From NCBI GenBank assembly GCA_027365475.1, contig DAHXNI010000091.1:1-64000 (forward strand): a stretch of 64,000 bases of DNA, written 5' to 3'. A program made the translations under genes and the position numbers. The notes beneath the pieces were generated by a model. The model ran no database searches. It had not been told where the DNA came from and saw only the letters and a program-made list of their open reading frames with translations. Positions within the stretch are counted from its first letter, which is position 1, and every line of letters starts with the position of its first letter. Shown here in pieces: positions 286-22,456 of this stretch. The DNA comes from Pseudomonadota bacterium (GTDB lineage: Bacteria; Pseudomonadota; Gammaproteobacteria; JAKAQQ01).

Positions 286-1974
286 GCTTCAATGAGGCCG
301 CGGCGATTCGCCGCGGATAATACCGAAGCCGGACCGGGCACGTACATGCTGCATGTGCTTCAATGAGGCCGCGGCGATTCGCCGCGGATAATCGTTCGGG
401 GTCAATCAATATTCGCCGTTCAATCCGGTGCTTCAATGAGGCCGCGGCGATTCGCCGCGGATAATTTCGTCCAACAGGTGCAGGCACTCGGGGCCACGGT
501 GCTTCAATGAGGCCGCGGCGATTCGCCGCGGATAATATCTGCGGTGTGAGCAGGCAGTGCGTCAGCGTGTGGCTTCAATGAGGCCGCGGCGATTCGCCGC
601 GGATAATGGTTATACTGCTTTTATCAACCTTTGGAGATGGAGATGCTTCAATGAGGCCGCGGCGATTCGCCGCGGATAATGGGTACAGTTGTCGGTACCA
701 GTGTTCCGGCAGCCCAGGCTTCAATGAGGCCGCGGCGATTCGCCGCGGATAATGTGACTGCTCTGGACTCAGTGGCAACTGTTCTAATCTGCTTCAATGA
801 GGCCGCGGCGATTCGCCGCGGATAATCATTTGCCAGCGGTCCTTGTGCATATATCACGCTTGCTTCAATGAGGCCGCGGCGATTCGCCGCGGATAATGTA
901 TCACCAGAGGAGAAAGAGGCCTTCCATCTCACGCTTCAATGAGGCCGCGGCGATTCGCCGCGGATAATATTTTCCTATAATGTCAGAAATTGAAACGCCC
1001 AATAGCTTCAATGAGGCCGCGGCGATTCGCCGCGGATAATGAATCATGGTCCCTGTCAAGATGTCGGGCGAACAAGCTTCAATGAGGCCGCGGCGATTCG
1101 CCGCGGATAATATTGCCCGTAGCAGTGACCGTTGCGGTATTGGTTGGCTTCAATGAGGCCGCGGCGATTCGCCGCGGATAATTCCGCGGGCGCCCGCGCC
1201 GCTATCGTGGCGTGAGTTTGCTTCAATGAGGCCGCGGCGATTCGCCGCGGATAATGGATTGATAATCGAAAACAGTTTATTGATTATTCAGCTTCAATGA
1301 GGCCGCGGCGATTCGCCGCGGATAATATCCCACCACCAGCGTAGAATCGCTGGGGATGCCGCTTCAATGAGGCCGCGGCGATTCGCCGCGGATAATCGAG
1401 CGGTGCAGCTTTGGCGAGTGGTGCAGCTTCGGGCTTCAATGAGGCCGCGGCGATTCGCCGCGGATAATGGCCGTCACACCGACGGGGACGTCACCCCGAT
1501 CGATTGCTTCAATGAGGCCGCGGCGATTCGCCGCGGATAATATGCCATCGGTCGAGTCCTCGCGTATTACTTCCCTGGCTTCAATGAGGCCGCGGCGATT
1601 CGCCGCGGATAATAGCCGCAGCGCACGATGATCCCATCCTCCGTGTTGAAGCTTCAATGAGGCCGCGGCGATTCGCCGCGGATAATGTGTTTTAATAGCG
1701 TCCATAATCATTCGTCTTCCCGCTTCAATGAGGCCGCGGCGATTCGCCGCGGATAATCGATGAAGTGTTAGGCGATACAGGAATGCCTGATGCCGCTTCA
1801 ATGAGGCCGCGGCGATTCGCCGCGGATAATTGCTGGGCCGCATCGTATGCCGCATTTTTCATATTGCTTCAATGAGGCCGCGGCGATTCGCCGCGGATAA
1901 TCTTGCAATTTTCTAAAAAGGGGTTATACTACTATTATGCTTCAATGAGGCCGCGGCGATTCGCCGCGGATAAT
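286..1974 (-). CRISPR. CRISPR array, 24 identical 36-bp repeats, 23 spacers
   Basis: A 36-bp unit begins GCTTCAATGAGG and ends CGCCGCGGATAAT on the plus strand. It occurs 24 times with no mismatch that I can find, at start-to-start distances of 70-73 bp, giving 34-37 bp spacers. The repeat core is a perfect 8-bp stem (CCGCGGCG / CGCCGCGG) with a 3-nt loop. On the minus strand the repeat ends in ATTGAAGC, resembling the ATTGAAA(C/G) 8-nt 5' handle of many crRNAs. The predicted promoter, cas genes and adaptation module all lie on the 1974 side. The array is therefore read leftward, the newest spacer is next to position 1939, and the oldest is near 322. No degenerate terminal repeat is seen. Confidence 0.98.
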
Positions 1975-2176: not shown

Positions 2177-2473
2177 TCACACGATGGTCGGCTCCCGTGC
2201 CACAGGATCAAAATTCTTGCCCAAGCTTACCACTTTTGGCCTGACCGTGTCGGCCAGCCCCAGGTCCAGAAAAATCACATGATCTGACTTGTGATGAATC
2301 ATAACATCCAGCATGGCCACCAGTTCGGCATGCCGTTTCCGGGACAGCCGGCATTGGAATATCGAGAACTGCAACCATTCGCCATAACCTTTCATCAGCT
2401 TGAACACCCGTCGCAAGCGTTTGGCGTCGGATATGTCGTAGGCAACGATGTAGAGATGTTCGTCGGTAGTCAT
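2177..2473 (-). CDS. cas2: CRISPR-associated endoribonuclease-fold protein Cas2
   Basis: This 98-aa protein is the usual Cas2 length. It starts with the beta-strand YIVAYDISDAKRLRRV, whose aspartate is the conserved ferredoxin-fold Cas2 residue, followed by the family segment GYGEWLQFSIFQCRLS. Cas2 dimers bridge two Cas1 dimers in the spacer-integration complex. The start codon overlaps the stop of cas4-cas1 (ATGA), so the two are translationally coupled. The gene is last before the leader and array, the arrangement expected for a type I-G adaptation module. Confidence 0.96.
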   Translation of the reverse strand: MTTDEHLYIVAYDISDAKRLRRVFKLMKGYGEWLQFSIFQCRLSRKRHAELVAMLDVMIHHKSDHVIFLDLGLADTVRPKVVSLGKNFDPVAREPTIV

Positions 2474-4182
2474 CGGGTGGTAAACACCGGGTATTCCAGA
2501 ATATCGCCAAGCAGGTTGCGGCCCAGCAAACGCGCCTGTAATTCCAGCAGGCGCCGGTAACTGATCCGGTAACCGAACACCGGATGAGTCACTTCCTGGC
2601 TCATGCGCCGCTCGAATGTTCCAATGAAACGCTTGCGTCCTTCCGGAGCCATGTTCACGCTGCCAGCGGCGCTGATAAAATCGCTTGGCCGCACTTCACC
2701 ATTGTTGATCGCCGTGAGCACACTCGAATCCGCAATCAATGGCCTGAACGGCTCCATCATGTCCAGCGATAACGCCGGTCGCCCGTATCGCGACTGATGA
2801 TAAAAACCGCGGTACGGATCAAACCCCACGGCGGTTAACGTGGTATTCCAGGCACGCACCAGCAGCGCATATGCAAACGACAGCAGTGCATTGACAGGGT
2901 CCGCCGGTGGACGCCGATTGCGTGCGCCGAAATCAAACGCCAATGCTTTTTCATCCGTATCCCGCTTCAGCATGGAGACAAACTGACTGAAATACATGGC
3001 CGCCGCCGCACCTTCAACTCCCAGCAGTTCCGGCAGACTGGAAACTCTCGCGGTCTGATTTGCAAACCGGCGCAGAGCTTGCAATGCGTTATCGGGTTCT
3101 GTATCAGCACGCCAGTTGCGGCGCAGCAAGGTACGGCAGTTGAGAATCTTCGCCCGCACGATACTTTTGGCAAACCGAAGACAGATTTGCTCATCGAAAC
3201 TGCCGCGATATTGCGCGGTGCGCAATTCAACATTCTTGTGTCCGACGCCCACCGAATGCCCGAGAAACCAGCCACCGTAGGAATGCCAGGAGATGGGTAT
3301 CTCGCGGCGCATGAGTTCGTGCAGGGTGGGTGTGGTCACATACACATTGCCTATCAACACAAGCTGGGAAAGCTCGACGAGGCGCACATGATTTACCGGC
3401 TTGTCCTCCACGGAAATTTCCAGCACTTCGCCTTTCTTGGATACCTTGGCCTGATTGGCCTGCACATAAGCAGGCAACGCTTCGGCTTGTCCCACCGCCA
3501 GAGGACGCGGTTCATTCACACCCCGGCGCAGGAAATTCACTTCATCCGGTAGGCAAATACCGACCAGCGAACAACGCGGACACTTAGGGCTATCTTCCAA
3601 AGGAGGCGGTGTTTGCCCGCCCGCTGCGATCAGGCGCAGCCCGTTGACGGCTGAAAGCGTTTGAGCGCGGAGTTCATCATCGAACAAAACCAGCACCCGC
3701 TCTTTCGACTCGACGAAATACAGGACACCTTCTGTGCAGGTGTAACCGTGTTCTTCGAGAATCAGACCCTGCACGCAAAGCTGTACCCGCTCGGGATCGT
3801 AAGCGCCATGAGCGGTATGTGGCCGTTTGCCGCGTTTGTAGTCCACCGGTATCACTTGCCCCGCGTCCGCTTCGACCAGATCCATTTTTGCAATGAGCCC
3901 CAACCGATTGGAAGACAGGGTAATGGACCGTGCATGCAGTGTTTCCCCTTCCTCAAGCTCTTCAGGCGAAGGCATGGCACCGCCCGGCTGGTCCACTCGT
4001 CGGTGACCGAAGCGGCCTTCTACCGTATCAGCGGAATCCGACCACTCCCCCTGCACCCATTCGAGATAGGCGAGACGCGGGCAATACTGGTATTCATTGA
4101 CCATCCGGGCTGGCAGCAGCGGCATGTCTGCGGCCAACTCCGGAAACGGGAGGGGAAGTTCCGCCTGAATTTCCACGGCCAT
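2470..4182 (-). CDS. cas4-cas1: Cas4-Cas1 fusion (spacer acquisition nuclease/integrase)
   Basis: This is a single polypeptide of about 570 aa. The N-terminal 220 residues are Cas4: a first cysteine in YQYCPRLAYLEWV, the RecB-nuclease motif VDYKRG, and a C-terminal cysteine cluster CPRCSLVGIC for an iron-sulphur centre. The remainder is Cas1. The catalytic glutamate is in LGVEGAAAAMYF, the histidine in GFYHQSRYG and the aspartate region in LSLDMMEPFRPL, so both halves look active. Cas4-Cas1 fusions are typical of subtype I-G (formerly I-U), where Cas4 trims and orients prespacers. I chose the ATG preceded by a G-rich stretch; a TTG four codons upstream is possible. Confidence 0.95.
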   Translation of the reverse strand: MAVEIQAELPLPFPELAADMPLLPARMVNEYQYCPRLAYLEWVQGEWSDSADTVEGRFGHRRVDQPGGAMPSPEELEEGETLHARSITLSSNRLGLIAKMDLVEADAGQVIPVDYKRGKRPHTAHGAYDPERVQLCVQGLILEEHGYTCTEGVLYFVESKERVLVLFDDELRAQTLSAVNGLRLIAAGGQTPPPLEDSPKCPRCSLVGICLPDEVNFLRRGVNEPRPLAVGQAEALPAYVQANQAKVSKKGEVLEISVEDKPVNHVRLVELSQLVLIGNVYVTTPTLHELMRREIPISWHSYGGWFLGHSVGVGHKNVELRTAQYRGSFDEQICLRFAKSIVRAKILNCRTLLRRNWRADTEPDNALQALRRFANQTARVSSLPELLGVEGAAAAMYFSQFVSMLKRDTDEKALAFDFGARNRRPPADPVNALLSFAYALLVRAWNTTLTAVGFDPYRGFYHQSRYGRPALSLDMMEPFRPLIADSSVLTAINNGEVRPSDFISAAGSVNMAPEGRKRFIGTFERRMSQEVTHPVFGYRISYRRLLELQARLLGRNLLGDILEYPVFTTR

Positions 4183-4263
4183 GTACACCCCCAAGCCTTC
4201 GAGGCAAGCCCAAGATTAAGGAAACTATAGTCAATATTCAGTAATCAGGAATGCCGGGGCCGC

Positions 4264-4668
4264 TCAGCGCTTGCGCCAATTCTCCACGGGCAAGCCGCTG
4301 ACGCGACGAAACTCCCGCTCGTTGGATGTGACGAGCACAAGCCCGCGTGCCAGTGCGCACCCCGCGATCAACGCATCATAAGCGCCGATCGGGCGACCCC
4401 GCTTTTGCAACGAAGCGCGCAAAGTCGCCGTCGCGCGGGCATCTTCCGGACCATAAGGCAATATCGAGACCGCCTGGAACAAGGCATGCATGACAGGAGC
4501 CAGCTTGCGCGCCCTGGTGGGATTGAGCACGAGACCAAACTCGATTTCCATCAGGCTGACGCTCGACACGCCGATGAAGGCAGGGGACATTGTTTTGACG
4601 TGCGTCAGGGTATGAGCATTGCCGCGCGCAAAGTCGCTCAACACGCAAGTATCGAGCAGGTACTTCAA
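4264..4668 (-). CDS. vapC: PIN-domain ribonuclease toxin, VapC type
   Basis: This 134-aa protein has PIN-domain features: LLDTCVLSDF with the first acidic residue near the N-terminus, SLMEIEFG, and the later acidic segment GAYDALIAGCAL followed by TSNEREFRRV. VapC toxins are magnesium-dependent RNases that attack tRNA or rRNA when free of antitoxin. The start overlaps the stop of the antitoxin gene by 4 nt. The pair sits inside the cas locus, between the truncated csb2 copy and cas4-cas1, in the same orientation. Confidence 0.88.
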   Translation of the reverse strand: MKYLLDTCVLSDFARGNAHTLTHVKTMSPAFIGVSSVSLMEIEFGLVLNPTRARKLAPVMHALFQAVSILPYGPEDARATATLRASLQKRGRPIGAYDALIAGCALARGLVLVTSNEREFRRVSGLPVENWRKR

Positions 4669-4901
4669 GCGAATGGATCCACGTGAGGAGCCTTAAGCCC
4701 GCGTCGCGTATCTTCAAAAGGGGGCATATCGGAGATACCATTAAAATCAAGCACGACATTCGGCCAATCGCCCCTGATGTCCTGGTCCAGCAGGCGGGCA
4801 AGCGCCTCGCGGATGAGCGCATTCCGCGACACGCGCCGCGCCTTCGCCAGCCGTTCCAGACGCGCTGTCGCCTGCTTGTCAATGTACACGTTAAAGTTCA
4901 T
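4665..4901 (-). CDS. vapB: ribbon-helix-helix antitoxin, VapB/CopG type
   Basis: This is a 78-aa protein. Its N-terminal half (MNFNVYIDKQATARLERLAK, then RVSRNALIREALARLL) is a ribbon-helix-helix DNA-binding fold. The C-terminal tail is rich in acidic and aromatic residues, as expected for wrapping the toxin. The ATG chosen follows a GGAGAA ribosome-binding site at 8 nt; a longer frame upstream lacks one. A perfect palindrome lies 23 bp upstream, consistent with autoregulation. Confidence 0.85.
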   Translation of the reverse strand: MNFNVYIDKQATARLERLAKARRVSRNALIREALARLLDQDIRGDWPNVVLDFNGISDMPPFEDTRRGLKAPHVDPFA

Positions 4902-4924
4902 GGCCGGTTTTCTCCATATAACTG

Positions 4925-4943
4925 CTTGATATGTTATATCAAG
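4925..4943 (-). promoter_or_regulatory. vapBC operator palindrome and promoter
   Basis: CTTGATAT-GTT-ATATCAAG is a perfect 8-bp inverted repeat with a 3-bp centre. On the minus strand it contains a TTGATA -35 box, with TATATG placed 16 bp further on as a -10 box. The arrangement is that of an antitoxin-repressed promoter in which RHH dimers would block RNA polymerase. Confidence 0.7.
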
Positions 4944-5687
4944 AAAATGCCTTTCCGCGCAAACCATCCGCGCCACCCCTCACTCCACGGGTTTAAACAA
5001 GCCCAAACCGAAGTGGCAGGCAAAGCCGAGTGCGATGGGGCCTGAAACGGGTTCAGGGAAAGTCAGGCGCCAGAAACTGCCGAGGCGGTCGGGCTGGGTC
5101 ATTCCACGGCGACTACGGAAGCGTCGGAAATGAATTGGACGACGTTTCCGATTCTTGCCTACGTTCACTTCGTCTAACGGCTCAAGGATAATCGGTTCGG
5201 GCAAACCGCGTTCGCGGCATTCGCGACGTAGCTGGTCCTCAATATTGAAATGCTTCTTGATGTGCCAAGGATGGAGATACGGGGTAACTGATTCCCAAGC
5301 CTTACTTTCCTTAGTCAGGGTGCTTCCAATCCCGAGATGGCCGATATTCTCCAGCGCCAGCCGCCATTCACCACCATCGCGGCTCCAAAGTTTTTTGACC
5401 CGCTCTAATATCCTCTGCTGTTCGGCATTCATGCCGTCGGGGACATGCAACAGCAGATGATCAATGCAACCGTCGCCGTTGGCATCCCAAGGAAGACAAA
5501 AAGCGTGGCCATGACGGTTGCCATCGGGCATATCGTGGCCGGAAAAGACGGCTGGAATGTTGCCTTCTCCGAAAACACGTTTGGCCCGACTCATCACCGC
5601 CACGCGCGGCAGGGGCTTGCCGAGGAGAACGAAACTGGTGGTAGTCGCAGTGGGTCTGTCGGCCTTGTGGATGACGCGCCGAGGTTC

Positions 5688-6897
5688 TAGTGTAGTGTCC
5701 AGCAAATAGATTTACATATAATCTGGAAATGACTTATGATAGGGGATGTCCCGCAGCCATGCGCCTTTCGTCATACCGGAGCTTCAGCGTGAGCCGTTGG
5801 AGCGGTGGGTGGCGGCTCACGGAACGCCGCAGCAGGTGGCGCTTCGGTGCCGCATTGTGCTCGGTGCGGCCAGCGGCCAGACCGATGTCATGCTGGCCGA
5901 TGCGCTGGGCGTGAGCCGGCCAACGGTCGCCCTGTGGCGTGGCCGCTTTTTGGAAGCCGGGCCGGAGGGCTTGTGGGAGATCGCCCCCGGCCGCGGTCGC
6001 AAGCCCACCTATTCGTCTCGCAAGATCAAGGCGATCGTCCAGGCCACCACATCGAGCAAGCCGCAAGGGATGACCCAGTGGAGTTGCCGGACAATGGCGC
6101 ACCTTCAGGGCGTGAGCAAGTCCACCGTCAGCACGATTTGGCGCAGCCACAATCTGAAGCCGCACCGGGTCAAGACCTTCAAGCTGTCGCGCGATGCCCA
6201 GTTCCTGGAGAAGCTCACGGATGTCGTTGGGCTGTATCTGAACCCGCCTGATCAGGCGCTGGTGCTCTGTGTGGACGAGAAGACCCAGATCCAGGCGCTG
6301 GACCGCACCCAGCCCGGCTTGCCGATGAAGAAAGGCCGGCTGGGTACGATGACCCATGACTACAAGCGCAACGGCACGACCTGCTTGTTTGCCGCTCTGG
6401 AAGTGCTGCAGGGCAAGGTCGTGGGCCAATGCTTCAGCCGGCATCGTCACCAGGAGTTCCTGAAATTCCTGCGGTGCATTGATGCGGCGTTTCCCGGAGA
6501 CATTCCCCTGCACCTGGTGATGGACCACTACGGCACGCACAAGCATCCGAATGTGCAGGCCTGGCTGAGGCGCCACCCGAGATTCATCCCGCACTTTGTC
6601 CCCACCAGCGCCAGCTGGCTCAATCGGGTCGAGCGCTGGTTTGGCGAACTCACTTCCAAAGCGGTACGTCGCGGTGCTTTCAGCAGCGTCGCCGACCTGC
6701 AGATCGCCATCGCCCAATTTCTCGAGGCCTGGAACAAAGACCCCAAGCCGTTCGTCTGGACTGCTACCCTCGAGTCCATTCAAGCCAAGCTCGCCCAGTG
6801 CCGCCAGACGCTCGAACAGATCAAACCCGGCTGCACTGCACCGCGGACCCGACGCACAAAGAAACAAATGTAAAGCTAATTCTTGGACATCACAGTA
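5688..6897 (+). mobile_element. IS630-family insertion sequence, apparently complete
   Basis: Ends are imperfect 30-bp inverted repeats: 5688-5717 begins TAGTGTAGTGTCCA, and the complement of 6868-6897 begins TACTGTGATGTCCA. Both repeats finish in TTTACAT. The flanking TA is duplicated, the standard IS630 target. The single transposase gene fills the element. It is inserted into the truncated csb2 copy. Confidence 0.9.
5746..6873 (+). CDS. IS630-family transposase
   Basis: This 375-aa protein has an N-terminal helix-turn-helix (ADALGVSRPTVALWRGRF), a second DNA-binding region with GVSKSTVSTIWRSH, and a DDE catalytic domain. The catalytic domain has VLCVDEKTQIQAL (first D), LVMDHYGTHKHP (second D) and SASWLNRVERWFGELT (final E). 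Length and motif order match intact family members, so the gene is probably functional. It is antiparallel to the surrounding cas genes and would interrupt read-through from cmr6 towards vapBC and cas4-cas1. Confidence 0.95.
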   Translation: MSRSHAPFVIPELQREPLERWVAAHGTPQQVALRCRIVLGAASGQTDVMLADALGVSRPTVALWRGRFLEAGPEGLWEIAPGRGRKPTYSSRKIKAIVQATTSSKPQGMTQWSCRTMAHLQGVSKSTVSTIWRSHNLKPHRVKTFKLSRDAQFLEKLTDVVGLYLNPPDQALVLCVDEKTQIQALDRTQPGLPMKKGRLGTMTHDYKRNGTTCLFAALEVLQGKVVGQCFSRHRHQEFLKFLRCIDAAFPGDIPLHLVMDHYGTHKHPNVQAWLRRHPRFIPHFVPTSASWLNRVERWFGELTSKAVRRGAFSSVADLQIAIAQFLEAWNKDPKPFVWTATLESIQAKLAQCRQTLEQIKPGCTAPRTRRTKKQM

Positions 6898-6974
6898 GCG
6901 CATCGACCGGGCGCATGTACCGCCCATCAGACCCGACACCAATGGATGGCGTCCCGGCTGGCACGACCCAAACG

Positions 6975-8132
6975 TCATGGATTGGAGTCGCGGCGGAGGA
7001 GCCTGTTGACCCGGCGCGCGATCTCTTGCTGTCGCGGCTTAAACGCAGGCTTCTGCTTTTTGCCTTGTGTCTTATCCGGGTTTTCCAGCAGGCCGGGGAA
7101 GTGTTTCCGCACCAGGGACTGGAATCGTTCCATCGCATCCGGTTCCGGGTTCTGTTCCAGCTTGTCGAGCCAGTCTTCGCTGAAGAGCCATGCGCTGAAC
7201 GCATTCTTGTCGGCTTCCAGATCGCACTTGGCGATGGTGTGCTCCAGTTCCCGCGCCATGGGGCTCAGGCCTTGCATACGTTTCGCCCGTGCCGCGTGTT
7301 CCTGTTTTTCTCGTTCTTCTTGTGCTTGTGCGGCGGCAGCCAGATCTGCTTGCTCATCTGCCCTTGTGAAGCGGCCGTAGCCCACGGATGTTTTGGCGCC
7401 GGCACCCAACCAGATCAGTGCTTCGCACAGCCATGCGGTCGCTGTTTCACAGTCCTTGATGTCGCCAGCGTCGTTTGCGCGCCGGGGTATCAGCATGAAG
7501 GTGAAGGTTTGTCCCTTGTCCACGGCGAGGAAGGGAATCGGGGTGGGATCGTGCCAGTCGGCGGGTGGCGTGGCGGCGCTTTTGTCCTGATAGTACAGTC
7601 CGTAGTGCGGGGTCATGACTTCGGCCGCCAGTTGGACGGACGCGGTGGGCAGTGCATCGCCGACGATCACGCTGCCCACACTGGCGTTGTTCTGGTTGGC
7701 GGGGCCGAAGATACGCTTGATGTCGCCTTTCTCCACGCCCTGCTCGCGCGCCCAAGCGCGCACTATGCCCTTGACCGAGGAGCCGGGCAGATAGGGCACA
7801 CCCAGCGTGTGATGCCAGGCGAAACCGTTTTCGATGGGGTGTTCGCGCCCCAGGCCGGTCACGAAACGGCCGTCGGTTTTGAAGCGCAGCAGGCGGCCGG
7901 CGCACGCAGCCGTCATTCGCCGCAAACGCTGGTACTGTTCTTCCAGTTGTCTTGGATCACCTACTTTTACTTTGCTATTGGAAAATTCGCCAATCCATTG
8001 GGATTTCCCATCACGTGAAACTTCCTTGAACCCTGCATCCCAATGATGAAAGAACTTGTCGTACCAAAGCCCGGCGTTGTAATCGCCCGTCGGCTTTTCG
8101 GTATGCAGGCTTTTCGGCAGAGGCAGATTCAT
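6975..8132 (-). CDS. cmr6: type III-B RAMP protein Cmr6
   Basis: This Cas7-like RAMP protein forms the head end of the Cmr backbone, next to Cmr1. The family signature is in the middle: the GLGREHPIENG segment, then PYLPGSSVKGIVRAWARE, whose glycine-rich loop contacts RNA, and a C-terminal KTSVGYGRF. At 385 aa it is longer than the usual 250-330. The extra length is a charged C-terminal region after about residue 255, with predicted helix content and a lysine/arginine-rich end. It is the last gene of the effector operon; the start overlaps the cmr5 stop by 4 nt. Confidence 0.93.
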   Translation of the reverse strand: MNLPLPKSLHTEKPTGDYNAGLWYDKFFHHWDAGFKEVSRDGKSQWIGEFSNSKVKVGDPRQLEEQYQRLRRMTAACAGRLLRFKTDGRFVTGLGREHPIENGFAWHHTLGVPYLPGSSVKGIVRAWAREQGVEKGDIKRIFGPANQNNASVGSVIVGDALPTASVQLAAEVMTPHYGLYYQDKSAATPPADWHDPTPIPFLAVDKGQTFTFMLIPRRANDAGDIKDCETATAWLCEALIWLGAGAKTSVGYGRFTRADEQADLAAAAQAQEEREKQEHAARAKRMQGLSPMARELEHTIAKCDLEADKNAFSAWLFSEDWLDKLEQNPEPDAMERFQSLVRKHFPGLLENPDKTQGKKQKPAFKPRQQEIARRVNRLLRRDSNP

Positions 8133-8542
8133 CGCGCGTCCCTCCCTTCCGGTATCTTAAGGAAGGCCACGGCAAATTTCTTCAGCCAGACGAGATAGGC
8201 CAGTGCCTCGGCATGAGCGTGCAGGTAGGCCTGCTCGCTGCCTTCGGTAATCGCACGGATCAGATTCTGATTGCCGGCATAGGGGGCATTCAGATGATCG
8301 CCACACAGCCAAGCTTGCATCTGTTCGTAAAGCTTGTTATGGGGTTCGTCCGGTTCTCCTTTTGCCGCGGATAGCAGCATGGCCAGCGCCTGGCCCAGGC
8401 CGTTTTGCAGGATGGTGGCCGGCAGGGCGCTGACATAGCTGACGTAATGTCCGGTGTCCTTGTCCCTAAGCGCATCCACGGCGTGCAGGGCGTGTTCGGC
8501 GCGCTGCTGGTCGAGGGATTTCTTGAGTTCCTCCGTGCTCAT
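8129..8542 (-). CDS. cmr5: type III-B small subunit Cmr5
   Basis: This 137-aa all-helical protein has the typical Cmr5 opening (LDQQRAEHALHAVDAL) and the segment YVSYVSALPATILQNGLGQALAMLL, a hallmark of the family. Cmr5 forms the minor filament (Cas11 role) between Cas10 and the head and stabilises bound target RNA. Start and stop both overlap neighbouring genes by 4 nt. Confidence 0.94.
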   Translation of the reverse strand: MSTEELKKSLDQQRAEHALHAVDALRDKDTGHYVSYVSALPATILQNGLGQALAMLLSAAKGEPDEPHNKLYEQMQAWLCGDHLNAPYAGNQNLIRAITEGSEQAYLHAHAEALAYLVWLKKFAVAFLKIPEGRDAR

Positions 8543-9342
8543 GACCGCGCCTCCGGAAAGGCCAGTGCCAGCCAGCCCTGGCCAACCGTTTCGTTACCGC
8601 CGACTTGCAGGTAAGGCGATTGCCGGAGCGCAGTGGCCAGCGACTCCAGCGCACCAGATACGCGTTCGCTGATCAGCGTGTAAAGCAGACCGTCGGGCGG
8701 CAGGCTTTCCTCGTACCAGAGGTTCTTGCTGGTCTTGGTGTCATCATCAAGCACATTGCGGGCCTGAACGGCCAATCCGTAGCGGGCAAACCAGACAAAG
8801 TCGTCGTCATGCAACACCAGCAATGATCTAACGAGGCGCGCGCGCGTAGCATCATGGACAATCAGCTTGCGTAACACAGTTATGACTGTATCAGGCACTT
8901 TGCCATTGAGTTGAAAGCTACGCTCTTCCAGAATGACGGGGGCTTCGCCTTCGCCCAGCGCTTGGCCGTGCCCGATAACGGTGTCGAGCGCTGGCGTTTT
9001 AATACCGATACGCTCCGCATCGCGCCGGTAACGTTCCCACAAATGCGGGCAGGTGATCCAGCGGCTGGCGCCTTGCAGGCTGCGCACGGGCAAGGTCAGC
9101 AGGCGGGCGTCGGAAAACAGCAACTGCCCGACGTTGTCCTGCTGACCGAACAAGGTATTGGTATCCGCCATACCTTTCTGCTTGGCCCAGTCACGCAGAG
9201 CGCCTTTCAGGCCCGAGCCGGGGATGAAGGGATAATCGGTCACGGCTTCGCGTGCCACCGGCAAATCCACTACCCCTTCACTCTGGCCGCCGCCAACGTG
9301 GATGAAGGTTTCCGCCAGCAGGCCGATGAGTAATGTGTTCAT
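8539..9342 (-). CDS. cmr4: type III-B backbone RNase Cmr4 (Cas7)
   Basis: This 267-aa RAMP protein repeats along crRNA to form the Cmr backbone and cuts target RNA every six bases. The catalytic aspartate is present at residue 26 in EGVVDLPVAREA, followed by the family loop DYPFIPGSGLKGALRD and C-terminal GGNETVGQGW. RNA cleavage is therefore expected. I set the start at the ATG that overlaps the cmr3 stop (ATGA); a longer upstream frame is inside cmr3. Confidence 0.95.
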   Translation of the reverse strand: MNTLLIGLLAETFIHVGGGQSEGVVDLPVAREAVTDYPFIPGSGLKGALRDWAKQKGMADTNTLFGQQDNVGQLLFSDARLLTLPVRSLQGASRWITCPHLWERYRRDAERIGIKTPALDTVIGHGQALGEGEAPVILEERSFQLNGKVPDTVITVLRKLIVHDATRARLVRSLLVLHDDDFVWFARYGLAVQARNVLDDDTKTSKNLWYEESLPPDGLLYTLISERVSGALESLATALRQSPYLQVGGNETVGQGWLALAFPEARS

Positions 9343-10445
9343 TGATTCCCCCAGGTTCCAATGGCTATCCATCCATAGCCCCAGGTGGGGCGCAATCCGA
9401 TACAGGTGCCATGCAAGGCACGGATGACGTGTTCTTCTTCAACGCCGGCCTGCATAAACAAAACGCTTCCCGGTGCCAGGTGTGGTTGAAGCGGGAGCGG
9501 TTGCTTCTTGACCGAATCCCAGCCGCCCAGCATCAGCACACGGGGCAGGCAGGCGCTGACCAGCGTGCCCGGCAGTCCGGGAATGGCCTGCCCCGGCGCG
9601 GGCGCCGACGCCAGCGGCAAGGGCGTCAGAACAACAACGGTGTAGTTCAGGTTTTTCCCATCGCGCTGCAAAGTGGCGGGTGAGGCAGGCAAGTCGGGGG
9701 CTGCATCCGCCACCGTGATCCAGGCGCTGCGCGCTTCACCGCCAACTGGATGCGGTTTGCGAGGGATGCGGGCGAGGGTTTCCTCGTCCAGTCCTTCCAG
9801 CCAGATGCCCAGGGTCACGCCGTGGTGCAGCCGGATGTGTTGCGGTGAATACAGGGCACCTTCTCCCGTGGTGCGGGTGGCTTCATCGCGTGCGATGCCG
9901 ACTCGGGCTTCGAGGGACCAGAGGCTTTTCTGTTCAACTATCGTATCTGCCGCGGGCTCTTTGCCTTTGAGTGCCGTGGACAACCCATCGAGGCTCAGCC
10001 AGATCAACCCCGCCTGTTTCCAGCCGTCTCCCGGCGCGCCGGAAGGCAAGGCAGGAAGCCGGACGGCCTTGTCCAGATCGCAGTCGCGCGCAGGGCCGGG
10101 CACAAGCAGGGTCGTCTTGCCGGCTTCGTTCCGCATCAGGTTCGCGGGTGCGAGGTAAAGCGGTTTCACGTGCTGCAGCAGCAGCGGACCGCGAAACCGG
10201 AGCGCCCCAAGGTTCTCGCCGTCGCCCAATTTCTGTTTGATGTCATCGCCCCACGATCCCCTGCCATTCCAGCCGAGGCCGCGCGCTACCGCGGCGCGGA
10301 CGGCGCCCACCAGCGTGGCCGGCGCGGGCGGGAACTGACTGGCGACGCCCACCTGCTCACATTCATCTTTGGTGTAAGGCCGTCCGTCGCGGAAGAAAAC
10401 CGTATCCAGCGGCTCGATATTCAACAGTCGACTGTGGCCGTTCAT
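9339..10445 (-). CDS. cmr3: type III-B Cmr3 (Cas5-like, binds crRNA 5' handle)
   Basis: The 368-aa protein has the Cmr3 N-terminus (IEPLDTVFFRDGRPYT, then FPPAPATLVGAVRAA) and a C-terminal WDSVKKQPLPLQPHLAPGSV region followed by the glycine-rich PTWGYGWIAIG. Cmr3 pairs with Cas10 and caps the 5' handle of crRNA. Here that handle would come from the single neighbouring array. The gene overlaps cmr2 and cmr4 by 4 nt each. Confidence 0.94.
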   Translation of the reverse strand: MNGHSRLLNIEPLDTVFFRDGRPYTKDECEQVGVASQFPPAPATLVGAVRAAVARGLGWNGRGSWGDDIKQKLGDGENLGALRFRGPLLLQHVKPLYLAPANLMRNEAGKTTLLVPGPARDCDLDKAVRLPALPSGAPGDGWKQAGLIWLSLDGLSTALKGKEPAADTIVEQKSLWSLEARVGIARDEATRTTGEGALYSPQHIRLHHGVTLGIWLEGLDEETLARIPRKPHPVGGEARSAWITVADAAPDLPASPATLQRDGKNLNYTVVVLTPLPLASAPAPGQAIPGLPGTLVSACLPRVLMLGGWDSVKKQPLPLQPHLAPGSVLFMQAGVEEEHVIRALHGTCIGLRPTWGYGWIAIGTWGNQ

Positions 10446-12313
10446 TCGTGGACCTCCTTGCCCGCCAGCAGGCGCGCGAGGCGCAGCCCATCCAGTTGCA
10501 GGGCTTTCTGTGAGCCGGCCTTGCCATCCTTGTCGCGCTCAAAACCCTGGCAGGCGGAAAACAATTCAGCGATCGCCTCTTCCGCTTGTTCAAGCGTCGG
10601 TTTGCGTTCGCGACTCTTCAGATATTCTGCCTGCAACAGACGCTTTACGTTTGGGAAGTTCTCCAGCTCTCCTGCGTCGGCCAGCATGGGATAACGGGTT
10701 CTCAGCTTGTAGAAGAATCCGCTGCCGAAGCGGTCCGCGCTCACGGCATCGGCGAGTGACTGCAAGCGCTTCGTGAATTCTTCGCCGTTGTCATCGGCCC
10801 AGGTGCTCACCCATTCCGCCGCCTTGCCGGAAGCCTTGAACCAGGCCAAGGCAATGGAATCGCGCCCGTTCCCGTCCTTGGCCACGCCGTCCAGTTGCCG
10901 GCGCGCCTCGGCCAGCACTTCGCGCAAAGGCAGGTGGTAATGGGCGAAGACGACGGCCACCGACGCCGTAAAATCCGGGTCGTTGAACGCTGTTCCGTAA
11001 GCTTCATGCAGGCTCATGGCGCAATCGAGGGCACGGTCATAGGGCAACAGCGCCATGACGTCATCGCCGCCAGCATAGAGCGTGACGCCGTCGTGCGCTT
11101 CAACACAGCCGGCAACGTTGCGACTGAAGCGGGCCAGCGCACATGAAATGGCATCCGGTTTGCCCGTACTCAGATGCTTGCCCAGGTTGTCGCCATCAAG
11201 CAACAGCAGCGCGTAATAAGGTTGGACGGGATGCTCTTTCTGCAGTTTCTTCAGCTCTGTGCACAGCGATTGCCGCGCCTCTTCATTCTCTGTCAGCGGC
11301 GTGTCGCTGGCATTGGCCAGCGCCGCGGGCAGGAAGAAATTGCCGTCCAGCCAGGCCAGTCTTTTCAGGGATTCCAGGCTCTTGATGTGCATGCTGCGCT
11401 CGCCTCGCACGGCTTCCCCGGCGGCCTCGATAACGTGTTCTTCGTATGCCCGCAGTTTCTCTGTCCGCTCCAGATCGCCGGCAAAGCCGCGCAACCACGG
11501 GATGGCCGCCATGTAGGCCGTAGAGGGCCAGTTGCGGACAGCCTTGGATATTCCATCCGGCACCCAGCGAATCGATTGTTTCGGGTCTTCCGGTTCGAGT
11601 TTCGGGAACAACCGCTTGATCAAAGCAATCGCGCAAAGCCGTTCGTTCTCGCGCAGTTCCAGACGCCCGACTCGGCTCCCGAGCGCGTTCCAGAAATCAT
11701 CCTGATTGCTTTTTTCGTGCGCACGGACAAAGCCCGACAGCTCCTGCCAGTCGCCCATCAGGGTGCAGTGATCGCCCCCTTCCGGTTCGGGCCAGCGGTT
11801 GCGCCAGTTCTTGCGGGCATCCAGCCAGCGGGCGTCGCTGCAGTCGCCAGGATCGGCGCCGAGCACCCAGGATATTTCCCAGAAGCCGTTGACCTGCCGG
11901 TCCCAAATCGCACGCGTTTCATTGCCCCGCGCTTGGCTACGATCCACGAATTGTTCCCAGACGGCATCGGCCAGCTTTCGCCAGGCGTCCCGCATGGCCG
12001 TCTCGACCCGGTGTGCATCAAAGGAGTCAGGCACCGTTGCCTTGAAACGATTGGGCAGCGAGCCGATCTGCGGGGTAGGATCATGCGCTAACGGCTTGCC
12101 TTCGATAGCGGCTATAAGCGGATCCGTAATGGTGTCCCCATCGGCAACGACCGGAAAGACGACGCGACCGCCCTGCCTCCGCACCTCGGCCATGGCCTGC
12201 CCTGCCAGCCAAGACAGCAGAAACGATCCCGCCCACAAGTCGCGCGTGCGCCGCGCCTGAGCGACGAAGCCCTGCACCGGGCCGAGCGTGAAATGGAACA
12301 GTTGGGAGTTCAT
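10442..12313 (-). CDS. cmr2: Cas10/Cmr2, cyclase subunit without an HD domain
   Basis: The protein is about 623 aa. It starts directly with the Cmr2 N-terminal motif FTLGPVQGFVAQARRTRDLW. The polymerase/cyclase palm motif is intact in LYAGGDDVMALLP (GGDD). This predicts cyclic oligoadenylate synthesis from ATP when target RNA is bound. I see no N-terminal HD nuclease domain and no H-D metal motif, so ssDNA cutting is not expected. The start is the ATG overlapping the cmr1 stop. A CARF-bearing protein encoded two genes upstream would be the natural receiver of the signal. Confidence 0.95.
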   Translation of the reverse strand: MNSQLFHFTLGPVQGFVAQARRTRDLWAGSFLLSWLAGQAMAEVRRQGGRVVFPVVADGDTITDPLIAAIEGKPLAHDPTPQIGSLPNRFKATVPDSFDAHRVETAMRDAWRKLADAVWEQFVDRSQARGNETRAIWDRQVNGFWEISWVLGADPGDCSDARWLDARKNWRNRWPEPEGGDHCTLMGDWQELSGFVRAHEKSNQDDFWNALGSRVGRLELRENERLCAIALIKRLFPKLEPEDPKQSIRWVPDGISKAVRNWPSTAYMAAIPWLRGFAGDLERTEKLRAYEEHVIEAAGEAVRGERSMHIKSLESLKRLAWLDGNFFLPAALANASDTPLTENEEARQSLCTELKKLQKEHPVQPYYALLLLDGDNLGKHLSTGKPDAISCALARFSRNVAGCVEAHDGVTLYAGGDDVMALLPYDRALDCAMSLHEAYGTAFNDPDFTASVAVVFAHYHLPLREVLAEARRQLDGVAKDGNGRDSIALAWFKASGKAAEWVSTWADDNGEEFTKRLQSLADAVSADRFGSGFFYKLRTRYPMLADAGELENFPNVKRLLQAEYLKSRERKPTLEQAEEAIAELFSACQGFERDKDGKAGSQKALQLDGLRLARLLAGKEVHE

Positions 12314-13251
12314 GTCCGTGCTCCCGCATCGACGAAGGTCCGTGCGATCCGCCATGTTCCGGACGGTTCATACTGACCCGACAGGAACTTCCCGGGTAGA
12401 AACAGCGCCAGCGGTATGGCCTGCGCTCCTTCGGGCTGGTGTACATGCAGGAATACTGCCCCCGCGCGACGTTTCCTCGCATTTCCACCCGCATTTTTTC
12501 GCGGAAGACCGAAACCTTCTCTTTGACCTTTATCCGACAAATTGCGGATAGCCTTCCGATAGTTTTCGGCCAACCAGCAGTGCGCCTTCTCACTGTTTTC
12601 GCATGGTTTACCAATCAGACAACCACTTTGTTTAGTGAAAGCCGTCCAGTCTTTCAGGCCGCAGCCGGAAACCAATAGGCCATCGGTAGCTTTCTTCAAA
12701 GATGGCTCGTCTGTTGGCGCGCGCCATGGCTCGCCGTTACCGGTTAATGTTTCCAACGTCAGGCTGCCCCATCCGTTGCGTGTGCGGCTCCCCAGTCCGC
12801 CGAAAAGGCCCAGCACTATCAGCATCTGGCACAGGCTATCCCGTTGCTTGGCATCACAGCCTGGGCAGGACAGTTGTACCGTGAACCATCCGCCCGGCTG
12901 GATGTACACGCGTTCGGTTTGCCCAGGTTTGTCGATCAGTCCATAGCCGACGTAACTCTGCCAACTGTTGCGGTTGAACTTCTGCTGGTTTTTGGTATGG
13001 AACCGTGATTCGGCCAGCCGCATCCGCACGTGGCTGACGCCTGTGCGGGTGCTGCCGAACAGCCTGTCTTCCTCGTTGCGTAATGCCTGCACGCTGTCAA
13101 ACTGTTGCGCGGCCATTGCACGCCACCAGAAGCGCAGCGCGCCCTTGAAGCTCGGCAGACGAAACTCGGCCTGGTTCGGGTCCGCACCGCTCAGGAACAT
13201 GGGTGTGACGACACGGTATTTCGCCGTGAAGGTATGCACGGGTTCAGTCAT
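12310..13251 (-). CDS. cmr1: type III-B RAMP protein Cmr1
   Basis: The 313-aa protein opens with TFTAKYRVVTPMFLSGADP and the loop FRLPSFKGALRFWWRAM, both diagnostic of Cmr1, the subunit closing the 3' end of the crRNA. GLFGGLGSRTRNGWGSL is the second glycine-rich loop. The chosen start, MTEPVHTF, follows an AAGG site and overlaps the preceding stop by 8 nt. Two ATGs slightly upstream lie inside the CARF gene. Confidence 0.93.
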   Translation of the reverse strand: MTEPVHTFTAKYRVVTPMFLSGADPNQAEFRLPSFKGALRFWWRAMAAQQFDSVQALRNEEDRLFGSTRTGVSHVRMRLAESRFHTKNQQKFNRNSWQSYVGYGLIDKPGQTERVYIQPGGWFTVQLSCPGCDAKQRDSLCQMLIVLGLFGGLGSRTRNGWGSLTLETLTGNGEPWRAPTDEPSLKKATDGLLVSGCGLKDWTAFTKQSGCLIGKPCENSEKAHCWLAENYRKAIRNLSDKGQREGFGLPRKNAGGNARKRRAGAVFLHVHQPEGAQAIPLALFLPGKFLSGQYEPSGTWRIARTFVDAGART

Positions 13252-14983
13252 TGCCTTCATCTCCATTGAATTCCTTGTCCAGCCAGAACAACTCAGATTC
13301 GACCCAAGGATTTACTTTTTGCTCCTCTTGCGTTCTTCTGTCCGCGAGTATGAAGCGCCGGCATAGTCGTTGATCATTGCGTGCTTGCTCAAATAACTGC
13401 TGCACAACCACTCCCATCAGAGTAGTACCTCCGGTCAAGTTGACCAGCACTTCATCTGCATCCAGACAATTTTTCCTTGTCTGTTGCAAAAGCGCCTTTA
13501 TTTCACTCGCACCATTGAATGGATCTTTCATGCCGAGAACGTTAGGGGTGCCTGAAAACCCAGTCCGCTGCAACGCTTCATTGATGCCCGGCTTGGCCTG
13601 CTCCGAACACAGCACCAGTACCGAGTTCGGCCGCGTTTGCTTGATAGCTGAATATAATACGCCCGGGCTCATGCCGACAGGGGTGATCAACAGGCGCCCC
13701 TTGCTGCCGCCGAACGACTCCCAAGCGTCATCTGCACCTTTGATCCTGTACCAGAACGACTGTATCTGCTCAGACAGGTTGGACTCCGGTTTCGCCACGT
13801 CTTGCTTCATACCGTGGTGGGCAAGCTGATTACGTTCCTTTCCGAGCTGATCCCAGAATGTGCCCCAGCTTTTCTGCTCATCCGACAAGCTGTCACGCAA
13901 TGCGGGCTGATTCATGGCGCCCAGTTCGCGCTCGATCTTCATGCGCGTGGGTCTATCCAGCCAGTGCTTCGGAGGGTCGCGATGCAGTACCCCCAGGGAC
14001 ACCACCCATTCGCGCATCAATCCAACTCCGGCCGAAAACTGGCCGCGGTCAAGGTACTGGTCTATCAATTTCGCCTGACGCCGGAGCTCCTCCCGGCTTA
14101 GCGGGTACAGCTTTTTCCATGCACTCTTGCTTTTGCCATTCTTCAAGTCATCGCTTTCAAAGCGCAGCGGTGCCGCGGCTTCCAGTACCGCTTCACCCAG
14201 CTCTTTGGCCAAGGGCACGTTCAGACTGGGCATGGTGTCCAGAGGACGATCTTCCAATGCGTGACTCAACTTGCCCGCCGCCAGCCCCAGTTCCAATGGA
14301 AAACCGGATTCGTAGTGGTACGAGAAGGTGCCCAGTGCTTCCGCACAGGCTTGCGACGGGCCACGTGAGGAATCTTTCGGCAAACTGTTTTTTACGTCTT
14401 CGAACCGGGCGGCCAGCGCCTTGGTAAACCCGGTCTCTCGAAACACTCGGACCGCATGGAACCATTGGGGAAGATCCAGCAAGGGCTTCAGATCAATAAG
14501 CGGCTTTGTATCTCCCTGGCTTTCGTATTTTCCATACCAGGCATCGACGATCTCGACGTTGCGGAAACTGGACAGGTAAAGCGCCAGTGCATAGAAAACA
14601 AACGGGATATGCCTCGGGCCATGCGTGATATCCAGCGTCAATCTGGATGCCGGGGCAATGTTGTTCGCTACGTTGCGGATGGTCGCGGAAAGTTGTTCGC
14701 TATTATCCCCATCAGGAATGTCCAATCCTTCAGCCCTGACACCCAACGATTCGACCTGACGCGCAAAATCTTCCCAAACCGTTTCGCGCGCTTTTTTTGT
14801 CAACAGGCACAACACCTTGTCTGGCCGGTCATTGGGATCCTGCAATCGCAACCACGCTAATGGCGCATGCTCGGATTGCGTAGTTTTGTCGCCGAGCGCA
14901 TAGGTGGTCCGTTTAGGCTGCGTTCCCAGTGCCATCAGCAACAGATGCGGCCGCGAATTGTTTTCCGTCGATATCATGCTCAT
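13244..14983 (-). CDS. candidate CARF-HEPN-CARF ancillary nuclease (Csx2/TM1812-like N-terminus)
   Basis: The protein has 579 aa. Residues 1-180 match the DxTHG/TM1812 (Csx2) type CARF fold: LLLMALGTQPKRTTYAL at the first strand and DITHGPRHIPF at 118-128. Residues 200-425 are mostly helical and end in KERNQLAHHG, an R-x4-H HEPN RNase motif (R384, H389). Residues 430-550 look like a second Rossmann-type CARF domain: LLITPVGMSPGVLYSAI, VLVLCSEQ, then LVNLTGGTTLMG. CARF domains bind cyclic oligoadenylate and HEPN domains cut RNA when activated. Two CARF-like domains on one chain are unusual. The gene overlaps csb2 (ATGA) and cmr1 (8 nt), so it is co-expressed with both effector types. Domain boundaries are read by eye. 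Confidence 0.82.
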   Translation of the reverse strand: MSMISTENNSRPHLLLMALGTQPKRTTYALGDKTTQSEHAPLAWLRLQDPNDRPDKVLCLLTKKARETVWEDFARQVESLGVRAEGLDIPDGDNSEQLSATIRNVANNIAPASRLTLDITHGPRHIPFVFYALALYLSSFRNVEIVDAWYGKYESQGDTKPLIDLKPLLDLPQWFHAVRVFRETGFTKALAARFEDVKNSLPKDSSRGPSQACAEALGTFSYHYESGFPLELGLAAGKLSHALEDRPLDTMPSLNVPLAKELGEAVLEAAAPLRFESDDLKNGKSKSAWKKLYPLSREELRRQAKLIDQYLDRGQFSAGVGLMREWVVSLGVLHRDPPKHWLDRPTRMKIERELGAMNQPALRDSLSDEQKSWGTFWDQLGKERNQLAHHGMKQDVAKPESNLSEQIQSFWYRIKGADDAWESFGGSKGRLLITPVGMSPGVLYSAIKQTRPNSVLVLCSEQAKPGINEALQRTGFSGTPNVLGMKDPFNGASEIKALLQQTRKNCLDADEVLVNLTGGTTLMGVVVQQLFEQARNDQRLCRRFILADRRTQEEQKVNPWVESELFWLDKEFNGDEGND

Positions 14984-16473
14984 TTGTCCTGTTCCATCGG
15001 CTTGAACAGGCCAAGCCCGAAATGGCAGGCAAAGCCGAGCGCCAGCGGGCCTTGCGCGGGCTCGGCAAAGGACAGGCGCCAGAAGCTGCCCAGGTGGTCG
15101 GGCTGGTCGAGTCCGCGGCGGCGGCGGAAGCGGTGGAAGTGGATCGGACGGCGTTTTCGGTCTCTGCCGACATCCACTTCGTCGAAGCTTTCCATGACGA
15201 CCGGCTCGGGCAGCCCGCGTTCACGGCATTCCCGGCGAATTTGATCCGCAACGGTGAGGCGCTTCTTGACGTGCCACGGATGTAGGTACGGCGTCACGGA
15301 TTCCCAGACGACGTTTTTTTGCATCAAATCTCCGCCCGCCTCGATGCCACCGAGACTTTCCAGCGCCAGCCGCCATTCGGCGCCGTCGCGGCCCCAGATG
15401 CGGTCGAGCCTTTTCAGCACACGCTGCTGCTGCGCGTCCATGCCGCCGGGCACGTGCAGCAATATCCGGTCGAGTCGGCCATCGCCGTTGCTGTCGTGGG
15501 GCAGGTAGAAAGCGTGGCGGTGGCGATTGCCTTTCGGCATGTCGTGGCCAGAAAAAACAGAAGGGATCTTGTCTTCACCGAACAAGCGCTTGGCCTGGCC
15601 CATGACGGCCACACGCATCAGTTCGCCGATGCGCAACGTTTCCTCCACGCGGGGTAAAGGTTTGCCGACCAAAATGAAGCTGGCCATAGTTGCGTCTGGC
15701 ACCTTGTATTTGGAGATGGCGTAGCGCGGGCGCAGCGCATCAACAGGACGCAGGTAATTTACTTTTCGCGCTGCTGGCGGCTGGTTCCAGCCTTGCTTGC
15801 GCAGATCGGCCGTATCCACGCTAAGTGCATCGAGCAGCTTGTCCGGTAACGTCTTGCCCAGCTTCTTGGCAGCTTTCTTGTCGGATAGAAAGCTTTGCCG
15901 GAGGGTGCTGTATTCTGCGGCTGGAAGCGGAGCGTAGAGTGTCACGACTTCGCCGTAGATTTCGCCGGTTGTCGTATCGACTGTCTCCATACCGGGTTTA
16001 CAGTTGGCTTTGGCGCCCTCGGCGATGCGGTGTGCTTCCACCCAGGACTCGGCGCGGCCCAAATAACCCATGACGGTCAGAAGATCGTCCAGCAACGCAC
16101 GCTGCTCTTCGGGAAGATCTAGAGTGGGCCATACGACCATCAAAGGATCATTCGGATGAACGGCTGTGAAGGCATCGAGAACAAGCGATGTCTTGCCGGC
16201 GGCGAACTGCGGCATGTAGTGACGGGTGTGACTGTGACTGGCCGCGGGCAGTGTGTACTCAGGCAACTCCTGAGCCAGCGATTCAATCAAACCAAGCAGC
16301 GTGGATTCGTTATGCTTTCCAGTGTACTTGATCTTGTGATGCCAAGTGGCGATCAAACTACGCAAGATGCGCCACGGCTCGGGTGGCCAAGCCACGGCAC
16401 CTTCGTTGACGTGCCTGCCCCACGGTGTGGCGTGATAACGCCCTGCTGGGAAGGTGAAGGAGAGAGCAAGCAT
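14980..16473 (-). CDS. csb2: type I-G Cas5-Cas6 fusion (Csb2, GSU0054 family)
   Basis: This intact 497-aa protein has an N-terminus (SFTFPAGRYHATPWGRHVNEGAVAWPPEPWRILRSLIATW) typical of the Cas5-like half of Csb2. The C-terminal half contains FSGHDMPKGNRHRHAFYLP and ends with [10 protein letters not shown], the Cas6-like, crRNA-processing half. It is the only likely processing enzyme in the window and so may supply crRNA to both the I-G and Cmr complexes. It starts three bases after the csb1 stop. Two other partial copies of its 3' end lie in the window. Confidence 0.93.
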   Translation of the reverse strand: MLALSFTFPAGRYHATPWGRHVNEGAVAWPPEPWRILRSLIATWHHKIKYTGKHNESTLLGLIESLAQELPEYTLPAASHSHTRHYMPQFAAGKTSLVLDAFTAVHPNDPLMVVWPTLDLPEEQRALLDDLLTVMGYLGRAESWVEAHRIAEGAKANCKPGMETVDTTTGEIYGEVVTLYAPLPAAEYSTLRQSFLSDKKAAKKLGKTLPDKLLDALSVDTADLRKQGWNQPPAARKVNYLRPVDALRPRYAISKYKVPDATMASFILVGKPLPRVEETLRIGELMRVAVMGQAKRLFGEDKIPSVFSGHDMPKGNRHRHAFYLPHDSNGDGRLDRILLHVPGGMDAQQQRVLKRLDRIWGRDGAEWRLALESLGGIEAGGDLMQKNVVWESVTPYLHPWHVKKRLTVADQIRRECRERGLPEPVVMESFDEVDVGRDRKRRPIHFHRFRRRRGLDQPDHLGSFWRLSFAEPAQGPLALGFACHFGLGLFKPMEQDK

Positions 16474-16476
16474 GGC

Positions 16477-22456
<5,980 letters not shown>

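Follow-up and report, generated by a model that had tools for sequence, protein, structure and literature searches.

A CARF-HEPN-CARF protein with a putative second cyclic oligoadenylate site in a type I-G/III-B hybrid CRISPR locus

Csx1-family effectors are expected to sense cyclic oligoadenylate (cOA) with a CARF domain and to cut RNA with a HEPN domain. What, then, could a second CARF domain do behind the HEPN domain of such a protein? The question is raised by one gene of a 64,000-nucleotide stretch of gammaproteobacterial DNA (the window), which lies inside a CRISPR operon. Here we describe the locus, the protein and its relatives, and weigh the roles that the second CARF may play.

The CRISPR locus and the architecture of the protein

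The locus comprises the following features:

286..1974, plus strand: CRISPR array, 24 identical 36-bp repeats
2470..4194, minus strand: Cas4-Cas1 fusion, type I-G like
6975..13266, minus strand: cmr6, cmr5, cmr4, cmr3, cmr2 (cas10) and cmr1, type III-B effector genes of the operon that holds the CARF gene
13244..14983, minus strand: gene of the CARF-HEPN-CARF protein, a Csx1-family effector with a C-terminal second CARF
14980..22035, minus strand: csb2, csb1, csx17 (cas8g) and cas3g, type I-G effector genes of the operon that holds the CARF gene

On the minus strand, the genes run in the order cas3g, csx17, csb1, csb2, CARF gene, cmr1, cmr2, cmr3, cmr4, cmr5, cmr6, and the CARF gene overlaps csb2 by 4 nt on its upstream side and cmr1 by 23 nt on its downstream side. 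From this operon order, together with the array and the Cas4-Cas1 fusion, the locus is a type I-G/III-B hybrid, and its position marks the CARF-HEPN-CARF protein as the cOA effector of this locus. The Cmr2/Cas10 protein contains the cyclase motif GGDD (...YAGGDDVM...), and the domain search returned no match for an HD domain in it. The setting expected of a Csx1 protein, a type III locus with a cyclase-competent Cas10, was thus found, with Cmr1-6 in the same operon and GGDD in Cmr2.

Between positions 286 and 22035, a single array and one unbroken minus-strand run carry complete I-G and complete III-B effector sets, the III-B genes being an insertion downstream of csb2. A second, partial Csb2 is encoded at 4980-5705 (minus strand) and covers only the C-terminal half; since it is just 63% identical to the full-length Csb2 (14980-16473), it is no recent duplicate, and it might be a remnant from a different system or act as a stand-alone processing domain. 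An IS630-like DDE_3 transposase gene (5746-6873, plus strand) lies in opposite orientation between the partial csb2 and cmr6, and ORF 5734-6978 (minus strand), considered as an additional cas gene, was rejected as the antisense of this transposase. The CRISPR locus also contains a VapC-like PIN ORF (4264-4668, minus strand), with Cas4-Cas1 on one side and the partial csb2 on the other; the small ORF beside it (4665-4976) may encode an antitoxin. Farther away, weak matches to PADLOC CARF3 models at 27683-28894 (plus strand) were judged spurious, as this gene encodes an ISAZ013-type transposase.

The gene was present exactly as the original prediction gave it, as one ATG ORF of 579 codons, and the predicted CARF-HEPN-CARF layout was supported by NCBIfam, PADLOC, profile alignment and fold matches of AF2 models. 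The PADLOC profile PDLC01840 (CARF2--CARF_HEPN_CARF) matched residues 12-570 of the 579 residues (458.9 bits, E=5.8e-138), and this full-length match rules out a frameshift or a chance ORF. The implied novelty of the architecture did not stand. It is already catalogued in PADLOC-DB (2023), which has three profiles named CARF2--CARF_HEPN_CARF (PDLC01838, PDLC01839 and PDLC01840), and we found no difference in architecture between these and the window protein. No experimental study of the group was found in the literature searched, which included few subscription papers.

The N-terminal Csx1 part and the relatives of the protein

The N-terminal three quarters of the chain contain the following elements, all on the minus strand:

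14459..14947, minus strand: N-terminal CARF, residues ~13-175, TM1812/Csx2 type, predicted cOA sensor (NCBIfam, AF2, fold and profile matches)
14612..14632, minus strand: DITHGPR motif, residues 118-124
14093..14458, minus strand: helical linker or HTH-like region, residues ~176-297 (AF2 secondary structure; matches CARF-HTH structures 8y75)
13733..14092, minus strand: HEPN RNase domain, residues ~298-417 (AF2, fold and profile matches)
13817..13834, minus strand: HEPN catalytic motif R384-N-Q-L-A-H389

When about 85,000 species genomes were scanned with alignment A1 as the query, 80 loci were kept, six of which encode full-length proteins (L029, L030, L031, L032, L034 and L035). Genome searches added three more (L111/L123, L116/L121 and L117/L122) and the locus list one (L081, identical to L114), giving a set of 11 CARF-HEPN-CARF proteins with the window protein (P0001) included. 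Their hosts belong to Bacillota (Limnochordales, Anoxybacillus), Acidobacteriota and Pseudomonadota, and the relatives share 22-36% identity with the window protein. The protein is rare: at a threshold of 1e-20, PDLC01840 matched in 2 out of 399 genomes of the phylum, one of them the window's own genome. There was no match in phages, and no plasmid record covered at least 80% of the protein.

The assignment of the N-terminal domain to the Csx2/TM1812 group was borne out. The DxTHG motif model TIGR02549 matched residues 116-139 with 24.7 bits, above the NCBIfam cut-off of 21, and D118, T120, G122 and R124 are invariant in the 11 relatives. TIGR02221/TM1812 matched residues 74-190 with an E value of 8.6e-19, but its 68.4 bits fall below the equivalog cut-off of 76.25; judged by sequence, the protein is a homolog of TIGR02221 that falls outside this narrow equivalog. 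In two members of the Acidobacteriota group (L116/L117, also L121 and L122), Tyr or Gly replaces the His of the N-terminal DxTHG motif, and the HEPN domain and the second CARF are kept. The HEPN motif R384-x4-H389 is likewise real. The conservation check in relatives proposed for it found R384, N385 and H389 invariant in 16 aligned CARF-HEPN proteins and in 11/11 CARF-HEPN-CARF proteins.

Homology to a solved, cA4-activated Csx1 was evident from two sides. Positions 11-413 of a profile built from the 11 relatives aligned with the Csx1 portion of the Marinitoga protein Csx1-Crn2 (8y75, E=5e-28), which further supports the Csx2/TM1812 assignment, and the best PDB fold matches of the whole-chain AF2 model were also Csx1-Crn2 structures (8y7g and 8y6z). 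For the whole 579-aa chain, the model reached a mean pLDDT of 81 and a pTM of only 0.59, so the modelled placement of the domains is uninformative either way.

Three relatives (L033, L124 and L125) have the same N-terminal CARF and no second CARF. In a quick tree of 104 N-terminal CARF-HEPN regions, it takes four changes to explain where the second CARF occurs, and well-supported branches force three or more of them; proteins without it, such as L033, are nested among its carriers. The module was therefore gained or lost more than once.

The second CARF domain and its pocket

The second CARF (hereafter C2) and its motifs occupy the end of the protein:

13283..13696, minus strand: C2, residues ~430-567 (profile matches and AF2 fold matches)
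13661..13675, minus strand: C2 motif I, G437-M-S-P-G441; S439, aligned with TtCsm6 Ser60, is Ser or Thr in 10/11 members
13415..13441, minus strand: C2 motif II, N515-L-T-G-G-T-T-L-M523; Thr521 aligns with TtCsm6 Lys137 and Can1 Lys90/Thr384
13292..13342, minus strand: C2 C-terminal loop motif, D548-x-R550-x4-Q555-x3-P559-x4-E564, aligned with the mobile loop of TtCsm6

The original prediction had placed a second CARF at residues 425-560; the profile and structure checks confirmed a domain of the CARF class at about residues 430-567, the last strand of the AF2 model ending at 567 and the protein at residue 579. The C-terminal 157 residues alone matched Pfam CARF_Card1 (E=2.7e-6), and the domain alone matched the PADLOC models CARF_HEPN_CARF, CARF4, CARF1 and Can1; all three CARF_HEPN_CARF models were matched by 11/11 C2 domains. 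Modelled by itself, C2 gave a pLDDT of 89.4 and a pTM of 0.85. At E<=0.001, this model had 42 PDB matches, every one a chain of a CRISPR signalling protein (TtCsm6, Cam1, Can2, Crn1, Card1, Cad1, Cdn1, Can1 and Csx1-Crn2), with TtCsm6 at the top, followed by Cam1. In the profile comparison with PDB sequences, C2 came closest to the second CARF of Can1 (E=2.3e-5). The N-terminal CARF and C2 belong to different CARF families. Csx16, Csx20 and Crn2 were rejected as identities of C2, the domain alone giving no such match.

We then compared the pocket of C2 with those of TtCsm6 and Can1, aligning it with the sequences from Thermus plasmid pTT27, whose numbering was checked against published residues. 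The TtCsm6 CARF binds and cleaves cA4; its K137A mutant loses cA4 binding, and Tyr161 and Asn164 are required for cleavage (PMC10897365). C2 has the CARF fold of Crn1/TtCsm6-type ring nucleases, as seen in its AF2 model and fold matches, and much of the pocket can be aligned. In motif I, G437-x-S439 corresponds to G58-T59-S60, with an invariant Gly, a variable second position and no conserved Thr. S460 aligns with the adenine-binding Thr81, T517/G519/T521 with T133/G135/K137, and D548, P559 and E564 of the terminal loop with D163, P174 and E179. G437, S460, P488, G518, G519 and D548 are invariant in 11/11 members, and N515, T517, T520, T521, R550, Q555 and P559 are conserved in 10/11; one member (L081) is missing most of the terminal loop motif. 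Mean conservation (JS divergence) was 0.592 for C2, 0.584 for the N-terminal CARF and 0.576 for HEPN, and C2, being as conserved as the other two domains, is therefore under selection.

The catalytic residues are another matter. The motif-II lysine (Lys106/Lys137) is absent from C2, with Thr in 10/11 members and Ala in one, and the equivalents of Tyr161 and Asn164 are not conserved, position 546 being hydrophobic or Gln and position 549 variable. C2 therefore fails the published signature of Crn1-type ring nucleases, yet it keeps a conserved pocket. A Thr at the lysine position is not fatal to binding, since Thr384 of Can1, opposite a Lys-bearing half, contacts cA4 (PDB 6sce). C2 might cleave cOA, bind it without cutting it, or no longer bind it, in falling order of likelihood by positional analogy. 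It is possible, if doubtful, that C2 does without the motif-II lysine and uses its conserved D548-x-R550-x4-Q555-x3-P559 loop to cleave cOA or to bind it specifically. The Csx1 RNase would then be fused either to a ring nuclease of a class of its own or to a second sensor, one for a different ring size.

Possible roles of the second CARF

Known systems offer several precedents for a protein of this design. Csx1-Crn2 of Marinitoga piezophila is a canonical cA4-activated RNase that is switched off by its C-terminal ring nuclease (PMC7293037). The window protein is homologous to it (8y6z, 8y7g) from end to end of the CARF-HTH-HEPN part, and in both a second domain predicted or known to handle cOA follows HEPN; this domain is Crn2 (DUF1874) in the Marinitoga protein, whereas it is a CARF in the window protein. 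TtCsm6 (5fsh, 8jbb), the top fold match of C2, shares the terminal loop and differs in having a single CARF per chain and in keeping the Lys137, Tyr161 and Asn164 that C2 is missing. Csm6-2 (CARF-HEPN-CARF-HEPN; PMC11229360, PMC13187428) also combines two CARFs and HEPN on one chain, but it belongs to the Csm6 group and has a second HEPN, whereas the window protein ends about 12 residues past its second CARF.

By analogy with such proteins, C2 is most likely a damper that handles cOA, because the C-terminal place that it occupies is filled by ring nucleases in the CARF2 family and by Crn2 in Csx1-Crn2. By catalogue name, PADLOC CARF2 models place the known ring nucleases after HEPN (CARF_HEPN_CSX16, CSX20 and CSX3), and for Csx16 and Csx20 ring nuclease activity has been confirmed (PMC12409355). 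Six CARF-HEPN loci have a tail that we read by eye as Csx16 (L008, L009, L010, L014, L021 and L026). These six proteins come from the same class as the window's genome and form nearly one clade, inside which L018 has no such tail. A further CARF-HEPN protein (L103, ORF 4735-6510, plus strand) has a C-terminal tail (INLSNHPIRSWSEAQ...) that resembles Csx20 by eye.

Beyond the domain order, folds, conserved motifs and operon context observed here, we infer the following course of events. Upon recognition of target RNA, Cas10/Cmr2 would make cOA, most likely cA4. Its binding by the N-terminal CARFs of a dimer would activate the HEPN RNase and lead to non-specific cutting of RNA. A second cOA site, made up of the C-terminal CARFs, would compete for the ring and keep the response in check, whether it cleaves the ring, as a ring nuclease, or holds on to it. 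We regard the case for a Csx1-family effector of the window's III-B (Cmr) system with such a built-in damping module as evenly balanced. The off-switch suggested in the original prediction is favoured by the position of C2 after HEPN, and its catalytic part fared less well, as the published lysine, tyrosine and asparagine are missing from C2.

Sequence comparison points both ways on damping. The pocket positions Ser/Thr439, Ser460, Thr517 and Gly519 are kept, and C2 is as conserved as the N-terminal CARF and HEPN, which would suit a damper. The loss of the motif-II lysine, the lack of conservation of Tyr161, Asn164 and the motif-I Thr, and the nearest PDB sequence relative, the second CARF of a protein in which ring nuclease activity is absent, would speak against it. 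The content of the loci is similarly mixed. No stand-alone ring nuclease was recognised among the NCBIfam families listed (25 of 27) for 58 small ORFs at nine loci including the window, which gives limited support to damping; a search of ten carrier genomes for Csx16 (PF09652) and Csx3 (PF09620), run without a positive control, had no matches. On the other side, some loci hold other CARF proteins. In an Anoxybacillaceae genome, a PF09651 (Cas_APE2256) CARF gene (L123:10415-11647, plus strand) directly follows the CARF-HEPN-CARF gene, so that two cOA-binding proteins adjoin. A PF09651 CARF protein is encoded elsewhere in three further genomes, including Limnochordales genomes, and was not found in the window's genome. 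TGGTK-type CARF motifs were read by eye in an ORF near the effector in L121 and in one after the effector in L035. A lack of other cOA-handling proteins is therefore not general.

C2 could instead be a second, non-cleaving sensor, a homodimeric site for the same or a different cOA that adds cooperativity or gates HEPN by a second signal. We find this rather unlikely, even though most of the CARFs related to C2 by sequence are sensors (Card1/Can2 and the second CARF of Can1), Thr521 aligns with a Can1 residue that contacts cA4 without cleavage, and the canonical ring-nuclease residues are missing: close relatives (L033) work with a single CARF, and the known C-terminal additions in the family are ring nucleases. 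That C2 has lost nucleotide binding and serves as a structural or oligomerisation module is improbable. Such a role would fit the loss of the motif-II lysine in 11/11 members and of most of the terminal loop motif in L081, but beyond the core it is the pocket motifs that form the most conserved columns (G437, G441, S460, T517-T521, D548, R550, Q555 and P559).

The arrangement raised in the original prediction, in which the two CARFs of one chain share a single asymmetric pocket and a monomer senses cOA, is modelled on Can1 of Thermus thermophilus, where one cA4 is held between two CARFs of a single chain (PDB 6sce). Both proteins have two unlike CARFs per chain, and the best PDB profile match of C2 is the Thr-bearing half of Can1, with Thr at the motif-II lysine position in both. 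Can1 differs in its effector, a PD-(D/E)xK-like DNA nuclease, and in pairing its CARFs within the monomer; the window protein has HEPN and no PD-(D/E)xK match. Residues 1-413 are a standard Csx1, the same N-terminal CARF is kept in the relatives that have no C2, where it must homodimerise, its family differs from that of C2, and the HEPN nucleases studied so far require dimers (PMC10897365). A shared pocket is thus disfavoured, and we consider it highly improbable.

Damping of cOA thus stays the preferred role for C2. Type III CRISPR systems have to shut down the toxic signal that they make. Should C2 damp cOA, the CARF-HEPN-CARF protein would join Csx1-Crn2 as a self-limiting RNase, and one scaffold would have acquired several unrelated modules at a single position. 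As a sensor that does not cleave, C2 would make the protein a two-input RNase. Either outcome would also put to the test the published rule by which motif I and the motif-II lysine separate cleaving from non-cleaving CARFs.
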